Positions 10,378 to 58,100 of a stretch of 64,000 nucleotides of DNA are shown here, in pieces; the stretch's first letter is position 1, and each line of letters begins with the position of its first letter. Below the pieces are notes generated by a model. It saw only the letters and a list, made by a program, of their open reading frames with translations, made no database searches and had not been told where the DNA came from. Source of the stretch: a virus. Where the stretch lies: positions 58,095 to 122,094 of IMG/VR virus record IMGVR_UViG_3300023174_000077, one strand, 5' to 3'. The position numbers were made by a program, and so were the translations under genes.

Positions 10378-10611
10378 TTATTTATACAATTGTTCCACAA
10401 TATATTCAGAATACTCTATAGATGTATCTATTTGATTGCTAATATAGTTTATATAATACATACTATATTCAAAAGTTTTATATGCCTCTGTTTCTTCCAT
10501 TTCTAATGGTATATATTCTGTGTCGTTTAATATAGCATCAATTTTCCTATCTCTATTTATGATAGTCATTTCTCTTTCAACCTCACCCATAGTGGCTGGG
10601 TCTATGCTCAT
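10378..10611 (-). CDS. Small paralogue A, NRDRKIDxIL family, directly after polymerase
   Basis: About 77 residues. I place the start at ATG 10611 (MSIDPATMGEVE), 1 nt past the polymerase stop TAG (10613-10615). An ORF start at 10713 would overlap polymerase by 100 bp. It contains IINRDRKIDAIL ... EMEETEAYK, the block shared with the proteins at 13528 and 13874. The C-terminal half is rich in Tyr and Ile. No database family comes to mind. Conserved placement next to polymerase and clamp genes suggests a replication-linked accessory role. Confidence 0.7.
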   Translation of the reverse strand: MSIDPATMGEVEREMTIINRDRKIDAILNDTEYIPLEMEETEAYKTFEYSMYYINYISNQIDTSIEYSEYIVEQLYK

Positions 10612-10612
10612 A

Positions 10613-12034
10613 CTATATTTCCCAGTCATCCCATTTTTGGTTGTTAAAGTCTTCATCGGAATAGTCTTCTTCTTCATTTTCTTTTTGTTTTTTCTTTTGT
10701 AAAGAACTACCAAATATATCTAATACAACAGAAAGTCGTTTTGTTATTTCTGGAAGTCCCAATGGTTCGATAATAGAATTAATTGGTGATAAAATACACT
10801 TATCAAATTGTTCATCTAAATCAATTTCAGGAGCAAATTCAATAGGATAAGAACCACGATTAAATGCAAATACAGAATTCATTTTTTTATCTTTGCAGTA
10901 ATAATACTTAATTTTAGAACCTGATTTTAAAAATTCATATTTAAATTGTAAATCTTTATTTCTATGTAATAACCAATTATAATACGCTGATGCTTTTACT
11001 GCAAAATGTGCTCCATTTACAAATACTAATTTATTTTTATCATCTAAAACTTTTTCATTATAATTAGAACAAGAAGATTGCATACTGATTTCATCAATCC
11101 GATCAGGTACACATAAATCAAATTCTTTTTTAAGATTTTTAACCAATTTGAGCAATTCACGAATGTTAAATGTATCTGGATGACTAAATAAATATTTAAT
11201 GATGTCCACAATTTTATCTCTTGCAAAAGATGGAGTTGATCTTCTAACAAGTTCAACACCTTTTGGATAAATATAATTTAATCTTTCATATGGGATGCCA
11301 TCTTCAAATACAATATGTTGAATATATTTCTTTTTAGCAATATAAATAACTGATTCGCTAATTCTTTCTAATTCAAAATCTTCTTTATTTGAAACGCCAT
11401 AACTTTCAGCATATTCTTCTAAACATTTTTTGAAATATCCAGCATATCTATAATAGTCAAGACCATGTATAAAATCTAATTCATGAGCCCAATTCCATTT
11501 AAGTTTTTCTTCTAAATTATTATCTTTAATAAAAGTTTCAAAATTACGATTTTTAATCCATTTACCATCAACGATAAACATATCTATATCTTCAATATTT
11601 TGTATATCTTCTAATTTAGAATAAACACCTAAACAATTTGGATTATCTGATGCAATTTCTTCTCTACCATGTAGAATTATATGAGCTTTTGTTATTTTAT
11701 TTAAATTGGAAAAGAAAAGATTTTTCCAATCTGAATGTGTAATAGCTGGTTTGAATGATACGAATAAACTATCAGTATCTGCATAAATACTAACTGGTTC
11801 TTTTTTTTCGTTAATTTGTTTTATATTTCTAATACAAATCTTTTTATGTAATTCGGTATCATTATGCCATTGATTATACCAATAATCTTCATTAACACGA
11901 TTCATAGTTTTTGTTAAATCTCTACCTTGAGCCGTAATTGAAGAAGCCACATGATTATTAAACAAGACGAAATAGGACGCAGCGAAGGCGCCATATGATC
12001 CATTCAATACTAATTTTAGTTTTATTACCCCCAA
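10613..12034 (-). CDS. DNA polymerase, family B (gp43-like), C-terminal part from motif B
   Basis: The frame opens just after a TAG and first offers TTG at 12034. It starts inside motif B (KLVLNGSYGAFA) and continues through motif C YADTDS (residues 84-89), KKKYIQ, PKGVELVRRSTPSFARD, and a C-terminal tail (GSSLQKKKQKENEEEDYSDED) that would carry the clamp-binding peptide. The thumb and the end of the palm are intact. The exonuclease domain and motif A are absent and appear nowhere else in the window. The helix that should precede motif B is encoded just upstream (12054-12161), beyond a hairpin with a stop. So this is either a split gene, a bypass-decoded gene, or a broken copy. The polymerase identity itself is firm. 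Confidence 0.9.
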   Translation of the reverse strand: MGVIKLKLVLNGSYGAFAASYFVLFNNHVASSITAQGRDLTKTMNRVNEDYWYNQWHNDTELHKKICIRNIKQINEKKEPVSIYADTDSLFVSFKPAITHSDWKNLFFSNLNKITKAHIILHGREEIASDNPNCLGVYSKLEDIQNIEDIDMFIVDGKWIKNRNFETFIKDNNLEEKLKWNWAHELDFIHGLDYYRYAGYFKKCLEEYAESYGVSNKEDFELERISESVIYIAKKKYIQHIVFEDGIPYERLNYIYPKGVELVRRSTPSFARDKIVDIIKYLFSHPDTFNIRELLKLVKNLKKEFDLCVPDRIDEISMQSSCSNYNEKVLDDKNKLVFVNGAHFAVKASAYYNWLLHRNKDLQFKYEFLKSGSKIKYYYCKDKKMNSVFAFNRGSYPIEFAPEIDLDEQFDKCILSPINSIIEPLGLPEITKRLSVVLDIFGSSLQKKKQKENEEEDYSDEDFNNQKWDDWEI

Positions 12035-12053
12035 CTAATTTTTTAGTTGGGGG
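12028..12053 (-). other. Perfect hairpin inserted in polymerase motif B region
   Basis: CCCCCAACTAA-aaaa-TTAGTTGGGGG on the minus strand: 11 bp with a 4-nt loop, including five G-C pairs in a region otherwise nearly all A-T. It lies between the codons for ...YYNALQLAL (ending 12060) and KLVLNGSYG (starting 12016). The intervening 43 nt contain TAA and TAG stops and shift the frame. A terminator is possible in either orientation, but no long U-tract follows. Position, stem-loop and stop resemble the T4 gene 60 bypass element. Confidence 0.75.
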
Positions 12054-12161
12054 TTAAAAAAGAGCGAGCTGTAAGGCATTATAATAATCTGCCTCTTTTT
12101 TCAACTCGCTCGCTTTATTTTTTAGTGACTCTAATTCAATTAATTTTTCTTCTTTTGTCAT
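12054..12161 (-). CDS. Polymerase fragment: helix preceding motif B
   Basis: 35 codons from ATG 12161: MTKEEKLIELESLKNKASEL, then KKEADYYNALQLALF and TAA. In family B polymerases a charged helix ending in a Q-[ML]-A-[LI]-K pattern runs directly into motif B, so this reads as the missing lead-in to KLVLNGSYG downstream. The same frame stays open upstream to at least 12239 (ending ITPYDFFNNFLTKIYTIS before the Met), where it runs into the homing endonuclease gene on the other strand. That suggests the endonuclease replaced or displaced the rest of the N-terminal half. As an isolated 35-mer it would make no sense. Confidence 0.7.
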   Translation of the reverse strand: MTKEEKLIELESLKNKASELKKEADYYNALQLALF

Positions 12162-12235
12162 AGATATTGTATAGATTTTTGTTAAAAAGTTGTTAAAAAA
12201 GTCGTAGGGCGTTATGATAATTTTATATATAATAT

Positions 12236-13000
12236 ATGAAAGAAAATAAATATTATATTTATGCCTATTTAGATCCTTCTAAACCAATTCAAAAAACTTA
12301 TGAAGATTTTTCATTAATATATGAACCTTTTTATATAGGTAAAGGTAAAGAAGGTAGAAAATTAGTTCATTTAAAAGATTATAAATTAAAAAATAAAACG
12401 CATTTGTCTAATAAAATTTTAAGCATAAGGAATAATGGTTTAGAACCATTTATAGTGGAATTATATGATAATTTATCAGAAGAAGAGTCTTTAATTATTG
12501 AAAAAAACTTAATTTCTATTATAGGTAGAAGAATACTAAAATCAGGTCCTCTTGTAAATATAACTGATGGTGGTGAGGGTGTTTCTGGGCTTAAACATAC
12601 ATTCGAATCTAGAATTAAAATGTCAAATAAAGGCGAAAATCATCCAAATTGGAATAAGAAACTATCAGAAACAACTTGTAAGAAAATATCAGAAAAATTA
12701 AAATTAAATAATCCTATGAAAAATCCAGAAATTTCTGAAAAAGTAAGATTAAAAAATATAGGAAGAACTCCTTGGAATAAAGGTTTATCCACACCAAAAG
12801 ATATTTGTAAAAAATTAAGCGATAAAAAAATAAAATATTTTAATATACAATTAATATCAAAGAAAGATAATACAATACAAACATTTTATAGTATATATGA
12901 TGTTATGTCTTTTTTAGGAAAATGCTATCGTTCAGTCTATTTATACCTTCAAAAAAACGAATCCAAAGATTATTTTATCAAATATGAAATAAAAAACTGA
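12236..13000 (+). CDS. GIY-YIG homing endonuclease
   Basis: 254 residues. The GIY-YIG core is YYIYAYLDP (residues 6-14) and EPFYIGKGKEGR (~31-42). It is followed by LSEEESLIIEKNLI, and by NUMOD3-type DNA-binding repeats: NHPNWNKKLSE, NNPMKNPEIS and GRTPWNKGLS. A C-terminal segment, FYSIYDVMSFLGKCYRSVY, resembles a helix-turn-helix NUMOD. It lies on the strand opposite the replication operon, between a polymerase fragment and an unknown gene. Such enzymes cut an uninterrupted allele and spread by repair. The adjoining interruption in polymerase motif B is the obvious candidate target site. Confidence 0.92.
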   Translation: MKENKYYIYAYLDPSKPIQKTYEDFSLIYEPFYIGKGKEGRKLVHLKDYKLKNKTHLSNKILSIRNNGLEPFIVELYDNLSEEESLIIEKNLISIIGRRILKSGPLVNITDGGEGVSGLKHTFESRIKMSNKGENHPNWNKKLSETTCKKISEKLKLNNPMKNPEISEKVRLKNIGRTPWNKGLSTPKDICKKLSDKKIKYFNIQLISKKDNTIQTFYSIYDVMSFLGKCYRSVYLYLQKNESKDYFIKYEIKN

Positions 13001-13527: not shown

Positions 13528-13857
13528 TTAATCTTCTTTAGTTTTATCATCGTATTTAAAATCTAAATAAAATAATTTACCACTTGGGCCTGACATTGGT
13601 TTTTTTATTGAGTTTAAATACTCTTTATATTCTTCTGTATCTTCTATTTTTAATTCTTCATAAGGATCATCAAATAGAATTGAATCTATTTTTCTATCCC
13701 TATTTATTGCTATAACTTTATTTTTAGCAATTTCTAATAATTTGGAATCACCATCTGCAATTGTTGATGCTGCAACTTTCCTAACAATAGGTAATATACT
13801 TGAAAATGAGCTATTTGTTGCGGTAAGTGTATTTGTCGGAGTATTTGATATTAGCAT
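13528..13857 (-). CDS. Small paralogue B, NRDRKIDxIL family
   Basis: 109 residues. The central block VIAINRDRKIDSILFDD ... ELKIEDTEEYKEYL matches paralogues A (10378) and C (13874). The N-terminus is low complexity (Ser/Thr/Asn), and the C-terminal tail is charged (DFKYDDKTKED). It starts 16 bp after paralogue C ends, in the clamp operon. Function is unknown. Confidence 0.75.
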   Translation of the reverse strand: MLISNTPTNTLTATNSSFSSILPIVRKVAASTIADGDSKLLEIAKNKVIAINRDRKIDSILFDDPYEELKIEDTEEYKEYLNSIKKPMSGPSGKLFYLDFKYDDKTKED

Positions 13858-13873
13858 ATTCTGTTATACAATT

Positions 13874-14185
13874 TTACAAGCTTCTTCCATCTTTTTTCCA
13901 TTTTTTTTGATTTTCCTCCGATAATCTCTTATATTCATCAGTATCTTCTATATTTGTTGCTGTAAAATCTTTATCATATAATATAGAATCAATTTTCCCT
14001 TCTCTATTTTTAGCAGTTATACTTGCAGCAAAATTATCAAACATTATAGTATTTAGGATATCTTTATCAATTTCTTCTTGAAATATTCTTGCGAGTTCCG
14101 TTTCAACATCTATACCACAATTTTGTTTTATATCATCTATTTCTTCTCTTGTAATCGAAGCTGTTATTCCTAAAATATTATTCAT
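13874..14185 (-). CDS. Small paralogue C, NRDRKIDxIL family
   Basis: About 103 residues. The start ATG 14185 (MNNILGITASITREEID) overlaps the clamp stop by 8 bp (ATGAATAA), implying translational coupling. The shared block here reads TAKNREGKIDSILYDKD ... NIEDTDEYKRL. The N-terminal half is helical and acidic (DVETELARIFQEEIDKDIL). The tight linkage to the clamp gene suggests a function at the fork or a clamp-associated regulator; this is inference. Confidence 0.75.
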   Translation of the reverse strand: MNNILGITASITREEIDDIKQNCGIDVETELARIFQEEIDKDILNTIMFDNFAASITAKNREGKIDSILYDKDFTATNIEDTDEYKRLSEENQKKWKKDGRSL

Positions 14186-14966
14186 CGTCATCATCAAATG
14201 TTTGTTCGAAAGATAACATCAAATTAGATATATTATCTTTTACTAAAATAAATGTTTCAAACATATAGAAATCAATTAAATCCATATCATCATTTATGTT
14301 TGAAAGGTATTTTTTATTAAATACTATTTTTTGATTAATTGAAGAATCAATTTCCCCAACCAAAAGTTCCCATTTAGAAGTTTCGCTTGCTGTTATTTTT
14401 CCATCTTCGATATCAATAGATAAAATCTTTTCTTCTGAATCAATTGCCGATAGTTTCTTAATATCATGAAAATCTCTTTTTGTAATTTGAAAATTATAAT
14501 TAGCATTATCTATATCTGTCCTAGCTTCAATTGCATCTGAATTTAAATCTCTAATTAAAGAATCTTCACCACCAATAGAATTTATTTTTAATTTACCATT
14601 TGTGAATTGAGAAGAACGAATTTGCATTACATCGGCATTATCATTATGTGGTTTATATATGATATCCATTTTAACTTGTGTATCAATGTTAAAAAATTTG
14701 AGACTTTTAATTAATTTTGGAGCATTGACTATGATAAAATCAAATATAGATTCTTCATTAAAATTATCAAAATAATTTATAGTTGGTAATATATAAGATT
14801 TTAAAGCCAAAACTGCTGAATCATTGGCTTTCATGGAATACATTAAAATTTTATCAGATTCTATTTTAAGTTTTACAACAGGATTTATATTTGATAAATC
14901 TTGAATTTTATTTATAAAATCTGGAAAATAACGCTTATTTAAGTTAATTGACATTTTTTTACTCAT
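14178..14966 (-). CDS. Sliding clamp, T4 gp45-like
   Basis: 262 residues, slightly longer than T4 gp45 (228). The N-terminal LNKRYFPDFINKIQDLSNIN, KLKIESDKILMYSMKANDSA, YNFQITKRDFHDIKKLSAID and the final DLIDFYMFETFILVKDN, with an acidic C-terminus (TFDDDDE), follow the beta-alpha-beta repeats of phage trimeric clamps. It would tether polymerase to DNA and, in T4-type phages, activate late transcription with gp55/gp33-type factors. The clamp loader subunit is at 62265-63242. Identification rests on overall pattern and operon context, not on a strict motif. Confidence 0.75.
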   Translation of the reverse strand: MSKKMSINLNKRYFPDFINKIQDLSNINPVVKLKIESDKILMYSMKANDSAVLALKSYILPTINYFDNFNEESIFDFIIVNAPKLIKSLKFFNIDTQVKMDIIYKPHNDNADVMQIRSSQFTNGKLKINSIGGEDSLIRDLNSDAIEARTDIDNANYNFQITKRDFHDIKKLSAIDSEEKILSIDIEDGKITASETSKWELLVGEIDSSINQKIVFNKKYLSNINDDMDLIDFYMFETFILVKDNISNLMLSFEQTFDDDDE

Positions 14967-57584: not shown

Positions 57585-58100
57585 TTAATACATTTGAATT
57601 TTATTAACTACATCTATAATAGTAATTTTTGTAGAAAAAACTTTTTCAGTTTCCGCAGCCCATTCTACAAATTTAACCAAATGTTCGTATCTATCATCAT
57701 AAATAATTAAATCTGTAGCTTTTTGATTTTTACGAAGTATTTGTTCAAACAATCTTGTTTTGAATTTAAAAGTTTCACCACCCCAATTGCAAAATACATC
57801 ATGAAATCTAAAATCATGAAAATCCAATATTGCTTGGACTTCTTGTTTAAGTTTATCCAAGCGTCCAGTGGCGATGAAGACATAATTATCTTCTTCAGAA
57901 ATTGCTTCAATATATTTATTATATGTCCACATATTCATAGCTGGATAAAAAACACTCATATCAAGTGATTCTTTTTTTGACCACCAACCTGTAGGATGTG
58001 GAAAAATTTCACCTTTTTCACGCAACCAAATTTTTCTACCTTCTTCAGGTTCCATAGTATGTATAAGGGTTTTGTCGAAGTCAAAACAAACTAATTTCAT
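57585..58100 (-). CDS. HAD-family phosphatase (SAK/PNKP-like)
   Basis: 171 residues. Motif I LVCFDFDKTLIHT (Asp7/Asp9), GWWSKKESLD, motif II FIATGRLDKLK, and motif III/IV LIIYDDRYEHLVKF. The P-x-G-W-W-[SD]-x-x-x-S-L block is typical of Swiss-army-knife/RNA-repair-type HAD phosphatases, which trim 3-prime phosphates. It could counter host RNA damage, or act on nucleotides. Host-type promoter 28-58 nt upstream; 1 bp gap to the UVR gene downstream, so HAD-UVR-ClpS form one early operon. Confidence 0.82.
   Translation of the reverse strand: MKLVCFDFDKTLIHTMEPEEGRKIWLREKGEIFPHPTGWWSKKESLDMSVFYPAMNMWTYNKYIEAISEEDNYVFIATGRLDKLKQEVQAILDFHDFRFHDVFCNWGGETFKFKTRLFEQILRKNQKATDLIIYDDRYEHLVKFVEWAAETEKVFSTKITIIDVVNKIQMY

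Follow-up and report, generated by a model that had tools for sequence, protein, structure and literature searches.

Recurrent stop-containing hairpin inserts in motif B of a split phage DNA polymerase: candidate translational bypass elements of the T4 gene 60 kind

Efficient translational bypassing in bacteria and phages has so far rested on essentially one well-studied case, gene 60 of phage T4, whose counterparts have long been presumed and are described in a review as scarce, with weaker reports from Prevotella and Streptomyces phages (PMC5009743). In T4, the insert lies early in the second half of a split subunit gene (with gene 39), at codon 46/47, and leaves a gap of 50 nucleotides (nt) (PMC5009743, PMC11194080, PMC2988022). 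A hairpin and a stop stand at the glycine take-off codon, a KKYK motif lies about 30 amino acids before it, an HNH homing endonuclease is encoded nearby, and a 5′ stem-loop ending at take-off is thought to set off the slide by pulling on the mRNA as its pairing is completed (PMC5009743, PMC11194080). The present analysis concerns a 43-nt insert in the DNA polymerase gene of the IMG/VR virus record IMGVR_UViG_3300023174_000077, within a 64,000-nt stretch (positions 58,095 to 122,094 of that record) referred to below as the window, to which all coordinates apply. This insert is probably a programmed translational bypass element of the gene 60 kind, situated in the C-terminal half (C-half) of a naturally split family B polymerase.

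Three other described systems share part of this arrangement. The byps of Magnusiomyces capitatus mitochondria are likewise short, recurrent inserts in coding sequence that are skipped in translation, some of them without perfectly matched codons (PMC5009743), but they are mitochondrial, occur in many genes and are apparently independent of mRNA context, whereas the inserts considered here interrupt one gene of bacterial viruses and carry strong, conserved RNA stems. The known split family B polymerases of phages, whose two pieces are linked to a homing endonuclease or to an intercistronic untranslated sequence (PMC2988022), correspond to the division of the present enzyme into N-terminal (N-half) and C-half genes and have no bearing on the 43-nt insert as such; in the present family tens of kb separate the halves, and the further break in the C-half gives a continuous frame only if it is skipped. 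The free-standing HNH (mob) endonucleases of T4-like phages adjoin a putative target gene, as the HNH genes described below do, and immunity of the intervening-sequence type is plausible in both; the present proteins differ in forming a DUF7487-containing family with a putative cleavage target, and their gene is not nearby in 13 of the 30 interrupted loci, the window included. A literature search covering few subscription papers or preprints found no description of bypass inserts in a DNA polymerase or of a recurrent phage family of them.

On the minus strand of the window, an ATG at 12161 opens MTKEEKLIELESLKNKASELKKEADYYNALQLAL, and 34 codons (12161-12060) lead to ...ADYYNALQLAL, the last being the proposed take-off codon CTT (Leu, 12062-12060). 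The non-coding gap that follows (12059-12017) splits motif B and shifts the frame: TTT is succeeded by TAA (12056-12054), which closes the first frame as the second gap codon, then by a hairpin (12054-12027) with a 12-bp stem, a C5/G5 base and an AAAA loop, and finally by the proposed landing codon CTA (Leu, 12019-12017), 8 nt past the G-run. CTT and CTA are synonymous and equal in their first two bases. From AAA at 12016, the resume point in another frame (KLVLNGSYGAFA...), the second coding segment runs to a stop at 10615-10613 and carries the rest of the C-half, namely motif B, the YADTDS motif C and the C-terminus, with matches to PF00136 and phrog_262 (E 1.7e-44). A sequence-only reading of this DNA had given the same anatomy, with codons ending at 12060 and resuming at 12016 around a TAA-containing, frame-shifting gap edged by CTT and CTA; its hairpin is present, although the stem is one pair longer than the 11 bp it reported. 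The pattern CCCCCN{8,20}GGGGG occurs once in the window against 0.00 expected (100 shuffles), and relaxing it to C4/G4 across the 122-kb record gives a short CCCCTTTTCTAAGGGG as the sole additional match. The hairpin is not a chance feature of the window, since 29 other distinct interrupted genes were found.

Relatives of the C-half were drawn from IMG/VR, from huge-phage records of 635-642 kb (LR745206, LR756502) and from Lak phages; the bacterial genome collection contained none. The contigs are metagenomic and often partial, the window's own 122-kb record being classed as a linear virus contig, a label that often denotes a fragment. Junctions were mapped in 68 distinct loci (designated by L numbers), with classes assigned by means of a single reference peptide; 30 distinct C-half genes proved to be interrupted, and about 30 relatives are not. 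The latter open with the same MTKEEK... peptide, pass straight into motif B (KKEVDYYNALQLALKLVLNGSYGAFA) without a break and lack the insert cleanly, as the sequence-only reading had predicted. The inserts measure 36-48 nt and fall, mostly after 33-42 codons, at six sites within nine codons of motif B, and their removal gives the same motif B every time. Class A (QLAL/KLV) comprises 14 loci including the window, class A2 (QLA/LKLV) 4, class B (KLV/LNG) 1, class C (LNG/SYG) 2, class D (NGS/YGA) 1 and class E (NGSY/GAF) 8. They differ from gene 60 in occupying a catalytically central DNA polymerase motif in many copies and at six sites, in using Leu, Ala, Val, Gly, Ser and Tyr rather than only Gly codons for putative take-off, and in the C5/G5 build of their hairpin. 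Because the gap lengths cover all three classes modulo 3, and a translated hairpin of 36-48 nt would sit in motif B, stop readthrough and a simple frameshift were rejected.

The geometry of the inserts is constant across sites. Every one contains a C-run/G-run hairpin (CCCCC and GGGGG in 27/30), the C-run starts 5-7 nt after the last codon read in all 30 and exactly 6 nt after it in 24, the window among them, and in 28 a spacer of 5-9 nt separates the end of the G-run from the last gap codon. In 26 of the 30, a stop is the first or second codon of the gap. GNRA or UUCG loops cap several of the hairpins (for example GUAA in L025, L026, L031 and L084, GAAA in L020 and L003, UUCG in L027). The geometry stays in phase with whole codons wherever the insert sits, an indication that the element is read by the ribosome. 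At five of the six sites, moreover, the gap ends without exception in a codon synonymous with the one that precedes it (22/22 loci outside class E): CTT or CTG with CTA in 14 loci, GCT with GCT or GCA in 4, GTT with GTT in 1, GGT with GGT in 2 and TCT with TCA in 1. Within class A the CTA is invariant (14/14) while its flanking bases vary. Placing take-off one codon later, with the stop in the A site, was rejected, as it leaves no matching landing codon and would alter the number of residues in motif B. In 19 of 20 interrupted contigs checked for further copies, the C5/G5 pattern occurs at the polymerase hairpin; the three further matches inspected were discarded as extra elements, being terminator-like, at the end of an open reading frame (ORF) or inside one.

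A second RNA structure lies upstream of the gap, as in gene 60. In the interrupted genes, the coding sequence before the insert forms a long stem, the 3′ strand of which reaches the take-off codon and ends there; the stem shifts along with the insertion site. Compared with synonymous codon shuffles, its mean z is -5.3, against -0.7 in uninterrupted relatives (Mann-Whitney p 6e-11), and in 28 of the 30 genes none of 300 shuffles is equally stable. The window's stem-loop (12119-12056; z = -4.59, 0/300) has an upper stem, 12111-12102 with 12071-12062, that abuts the take-off codon, and a lower stem that enters the gap; in class A, the first gap bases pair in this way with coding sequence further upstream. 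Changes on both sides that keep the pairs occur in 16 cells of class A, a value that none of 500 shuffles reaches, these shuffles ignoring relatedness. An additional closing helix can form in L011, L028, L121, L134, L008 and L030: an early coding stretch reading GAGTCATT or GAGTCTTT, some 65 nt ahead of take-off, pairs there with ATGACT or AAGACT just before the landing codon, and the two sides vary together in some class A loci.

These stems also bear on an account in which the insert is removed from the RNA, as a mini-intron or by a nuclease plus ligase, possibly phage RNA ligases, so that the ribosome reads a continuous message. They could double as cleavage or ligation guides, the closing helix from early coding sequence to the landing region being available in L011, L028 and L031, and removal would account for the class E junctions, which have no codon match. 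Splicing, however, needs neither synonymous edge codons nor a hairpin about 6 nt past a whole codon at several sites, 36-48 nt is far below the size of any known self-splicing intron, and no conserved catalytic-looking core is found outside the stems. Rfam gave no match at gathering level in the window and none at E <= 1 around the insert. Removal at the RNA level is thus considered unlikely.

Several observations weigh against bypassing of the gene 60 kind. The stop directly adjoins the take-off codon in only 4 of the 30 inserts and is the second gap codon in 22, including the window, so that a sense codon mostly follows take-off, unlike in gene 60; the gap of L020 has no zero-frame stop at all, and in L084 and L088 the first stop is the seventh gap codon. 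A strong 5′ stem is missing from L017 and L020. No nascent-peptide signal resembling KKYK is evident by eye, the same Lys/Glu-rich N-terminal peptide standing in differing registers to the sites. The loci are related, which makes the counts non-independent. Finally, the eight class E loci end their gaps with AGC, AAC (three), GAC, TAA (two) or CAA, none of which matches the Tyr take-off codons TAT/TAC, a departure from gene 60 which means that codon-matched landing does not cover every case. Pairing at two of three positions, steering by the G-run at a Shine-Dalgarno-like spacing, or base-pairing of the take-off region with the landing region are possible reasons. As to the last, bases before take-off can pair around the resume codon in L012 (GCTCC/GGAGC), L018, L020, L027 and L063, and such pairing might steer landing without a codon match.

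The exceptional position of class E invites a mixed explanation, in which classes A-D are bypassed between matched codons and class E, its element merely similar in appearance, follows another route of recoding or splicing. Matched codons are absent from class E only, and the potential of its pre-take-off sequence to pair with the landing region in several loci (L012 again) fits such a route. Nevertheless, it shares with the other classes the C5/G5 hairpin, the 6-nt spacer, a landing spacer of mostly 5-8 nt, the 5′ stem (6/8) and, in part, the HNH neighbour, and two separate mechanisms appear rather improbable.

Bypassing would preserve the product of the gene, and the coding sequence behaves as if that product were retained. 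The downstream part evolves under purifying selection, with omega 0.03-0.20 (0.07 for the window against its sister L003). This is hard to reconcile with an inactivated gene whose work is done by another polymerase, an idea suggested by the stop and frame shift in an essential motif, and only one PF00136 gene is present in the window's record. Nor does an assembly error fit, as the same insert recurs in contigs of different assemblies (for example L008/L009, L011/L022, L121-L123 and L126/L127/L138/L142). Inactivation or misassembly therefore ranks as the most improbable of the accounts. Slightly less remote, and still very unlikely, is a polymerase in three pieces, with a 35-amino-acid peptide and the downstream ORF made separately, from TTG 12034 or elsewhere, and assembling afterwards. 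Such a scheme gains from the fact that the polymerase is already split once, from the functional split of T4-like gp43 into 43A and 43B (PMC2988022) and, in the window, from an in-frame TTG located 18 nt ahead of the resume codon, at which the sequence-only reading had placed an alternative restart. Yet 20 of the 30 interrupted genes have no in-frame ATG, GTG or TTG after the last stop and ahead of the landing site, which makes this restart unlikely, and in many the next in-frame start lies 30-39 codons on, past motif B, so that a separately started protein would be without this motif. A separate short peptide would, in addition, require neither an exact junction nor the observed geometry and synonymous flanks. 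The gene 60-like bypass put forward in the sequence-only reading is accordingly the account best supported by comparison, the insert having the anatomy of that element type and a putative function.

The split of the polymerase itself is real and is distinct from the insert. Seven relatives' contigs encode the N-half, which contains the exonuclease and motif A (DFASLYP), as an ORF of its own, tens of kb from the C-half; it measures 501-519 amino acids and matches PF03104 and PF00136. It ends in a Lys/Glu-rich stretch exactly where the C-half begins, which places the gene split in the region before motif B, and an intact N-half gene is found elsewhere in five interrupted contigs (L012, L018, L027, L121 and L129). 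The family B polymerase is thus a true two-gene split, and the 43-nt insert is a second, different break inside the C-half gene, since the N/C split sits 34 codons upstream of it; the split and the bypass, formerly set against each other as alternatives, are two features of one gene system. The exonuclease and motif A, already noted as missing from the window in the sequence-only reading, were not found anywhere in the 122-kb record. An AlphaFold model (pLDDT 42) was too poor and was not used. In ten loci (L015, L025, L031, L084, L093, L097, L129, L134, L135 and L167), an apparent split intein interrupts the polymerase once more, at YADTD|S, its N-part ending in ...KPSEILKTDKIL before a stop and, in L025, its C-part (...HTFIANDMLVHN|S) following downstream; the C-half gene thus bears up to three kinds of break.

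Presence and absence of the insert require at least 11 forced changes on the tree of the downstream protein, and close pairs illustrate how readily it is gained and lost. Between L006, which is empty, and L012 (class E), downstream identity is 92-99%, L012 possessing the insert and an HNH gene in addition. For L016 (class A2) and L020 (class E), downstream identity is about 98%, yet the two differ in insert, site and upstream DNA. The window and L003, whose downstream proteins are 91% identical, have their inserts at different sites. The first 33 codons of L008 and L030 have dS 0.14 against a near-saturated 2.9 downstream.

An HNH/DUF7487 gene, whose protein matches PHROG 'homing endonuclease' families, adjoins 17/30 interrupted but 1/21 uninterrupted genes (Fisher p 1e-4); among tree-independent pairs, 11 in number, the ratio is about 6:0 (median p 0.03). 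In the window, the neighbour is instead a divergently transcribed LEM-3-type GIY-YIG gene with NUMOD3 (PF22945, PF07460; plus strand, 12236-13000), a putative homing endonuclease that starts 75 bp from the polymerase ATG, as the sequence-only reading had noted. The link to homing endonucleases drawn in that reading therefore holds across the family, mainly for HNH/DUF7487 proteins, with the GIY-YIG gene as an exception that may have replaced an HNH gene. In L072, a homologue of the GIY-YIG protein is encoded at the same place, ahead of a polymerase gene that is uninterrupted; the tie between this endonuclease and the insert is therefore not a strict one. The nine-codon span of the six insertion sites is the size of a homing-endonuclease target. 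The insert may protect against cleavage, a role already suggested for the one in gene 60 (PMC5009743). In other phages (L201-L205), distant relatives of the HNH endonuclease have neither the polymerase motif nor such a hairpin beside them. In L201 (1458-3335 and 3474-4298), a DUF7487/HNH-type relative adjoins an apparent topoisomerase large-subunit gene (by eye), an arrangement that recalls mobA beside T4 genes 39/60, and no C/G hairpin was seen there.

Taken together, these features suggest how the element would work in the window. The ribosome would read 34 codons to CTT and be held there by the stop, which lies one or two codons ahead, and by the hairpin 6 nt ahead. The peptidyl-tRNA-Leu would release CTT, and the ribosome would slide across the 43 nt, aided by refolding of the 5′ coding stem-loop behind it, until the tRNA re-paired with CTA and reading resumed at AAA to give an intact QLAL-KLVLNGSYG motif B. 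The G-run of the hairpin, 5-9 nt before the landing codon in most relatives, may serve as a Shine-Dalgarno-like guide. No tRNA gene is present in the window, which accordingly gives no clue to a phage-encoded tRNA-Leu. As the insert probably destroys the target of the endonuclease encoded next door, it would be kept and spread, the endonuclease and the insert travelling as a cassette.

Aside from these features, three small minus-strand ORFs near the polymerase (10378-10713, 13528-13857 and 13874-14197) have a repeated motif in common (INRDRKIDAIL, INRDRKIDSIL and KNREGKIDSIL), as if a short tail-like peptide stood on several small genes. A homologue of translation initiation factor IF3 is encoded directly upstream of the C-half in L006, L014, L017 and L020, the L014 copy possessing both domains (PF05198, PF00707).

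Many huge phages, then, carry a stop-containing hairpin of about 40 bases in the most conserved motif of their essential polymerase, over which the ribosome most likely jumps. An almost unique trick would thereby become a recurrent and probably mobile one. More tentatively, and on balance doubtfully, mobile bypass elements accompanied by homing endonucleases might have invaded motif B many times, with at least six take-off amino acids and with one class landing unmatched through a Shine-Dalgarno-like G-run anchor and mRNA refolding. With some 30 natural variants in an essential enzyme, six sites and empty-site sister alleles, the rules of take-off and landing become readable by comparison. The family supports the idea that bypass inserts are immunity devices against homing endonucleases, and it reveals genes of a kind that automated gene calling will list as broken.

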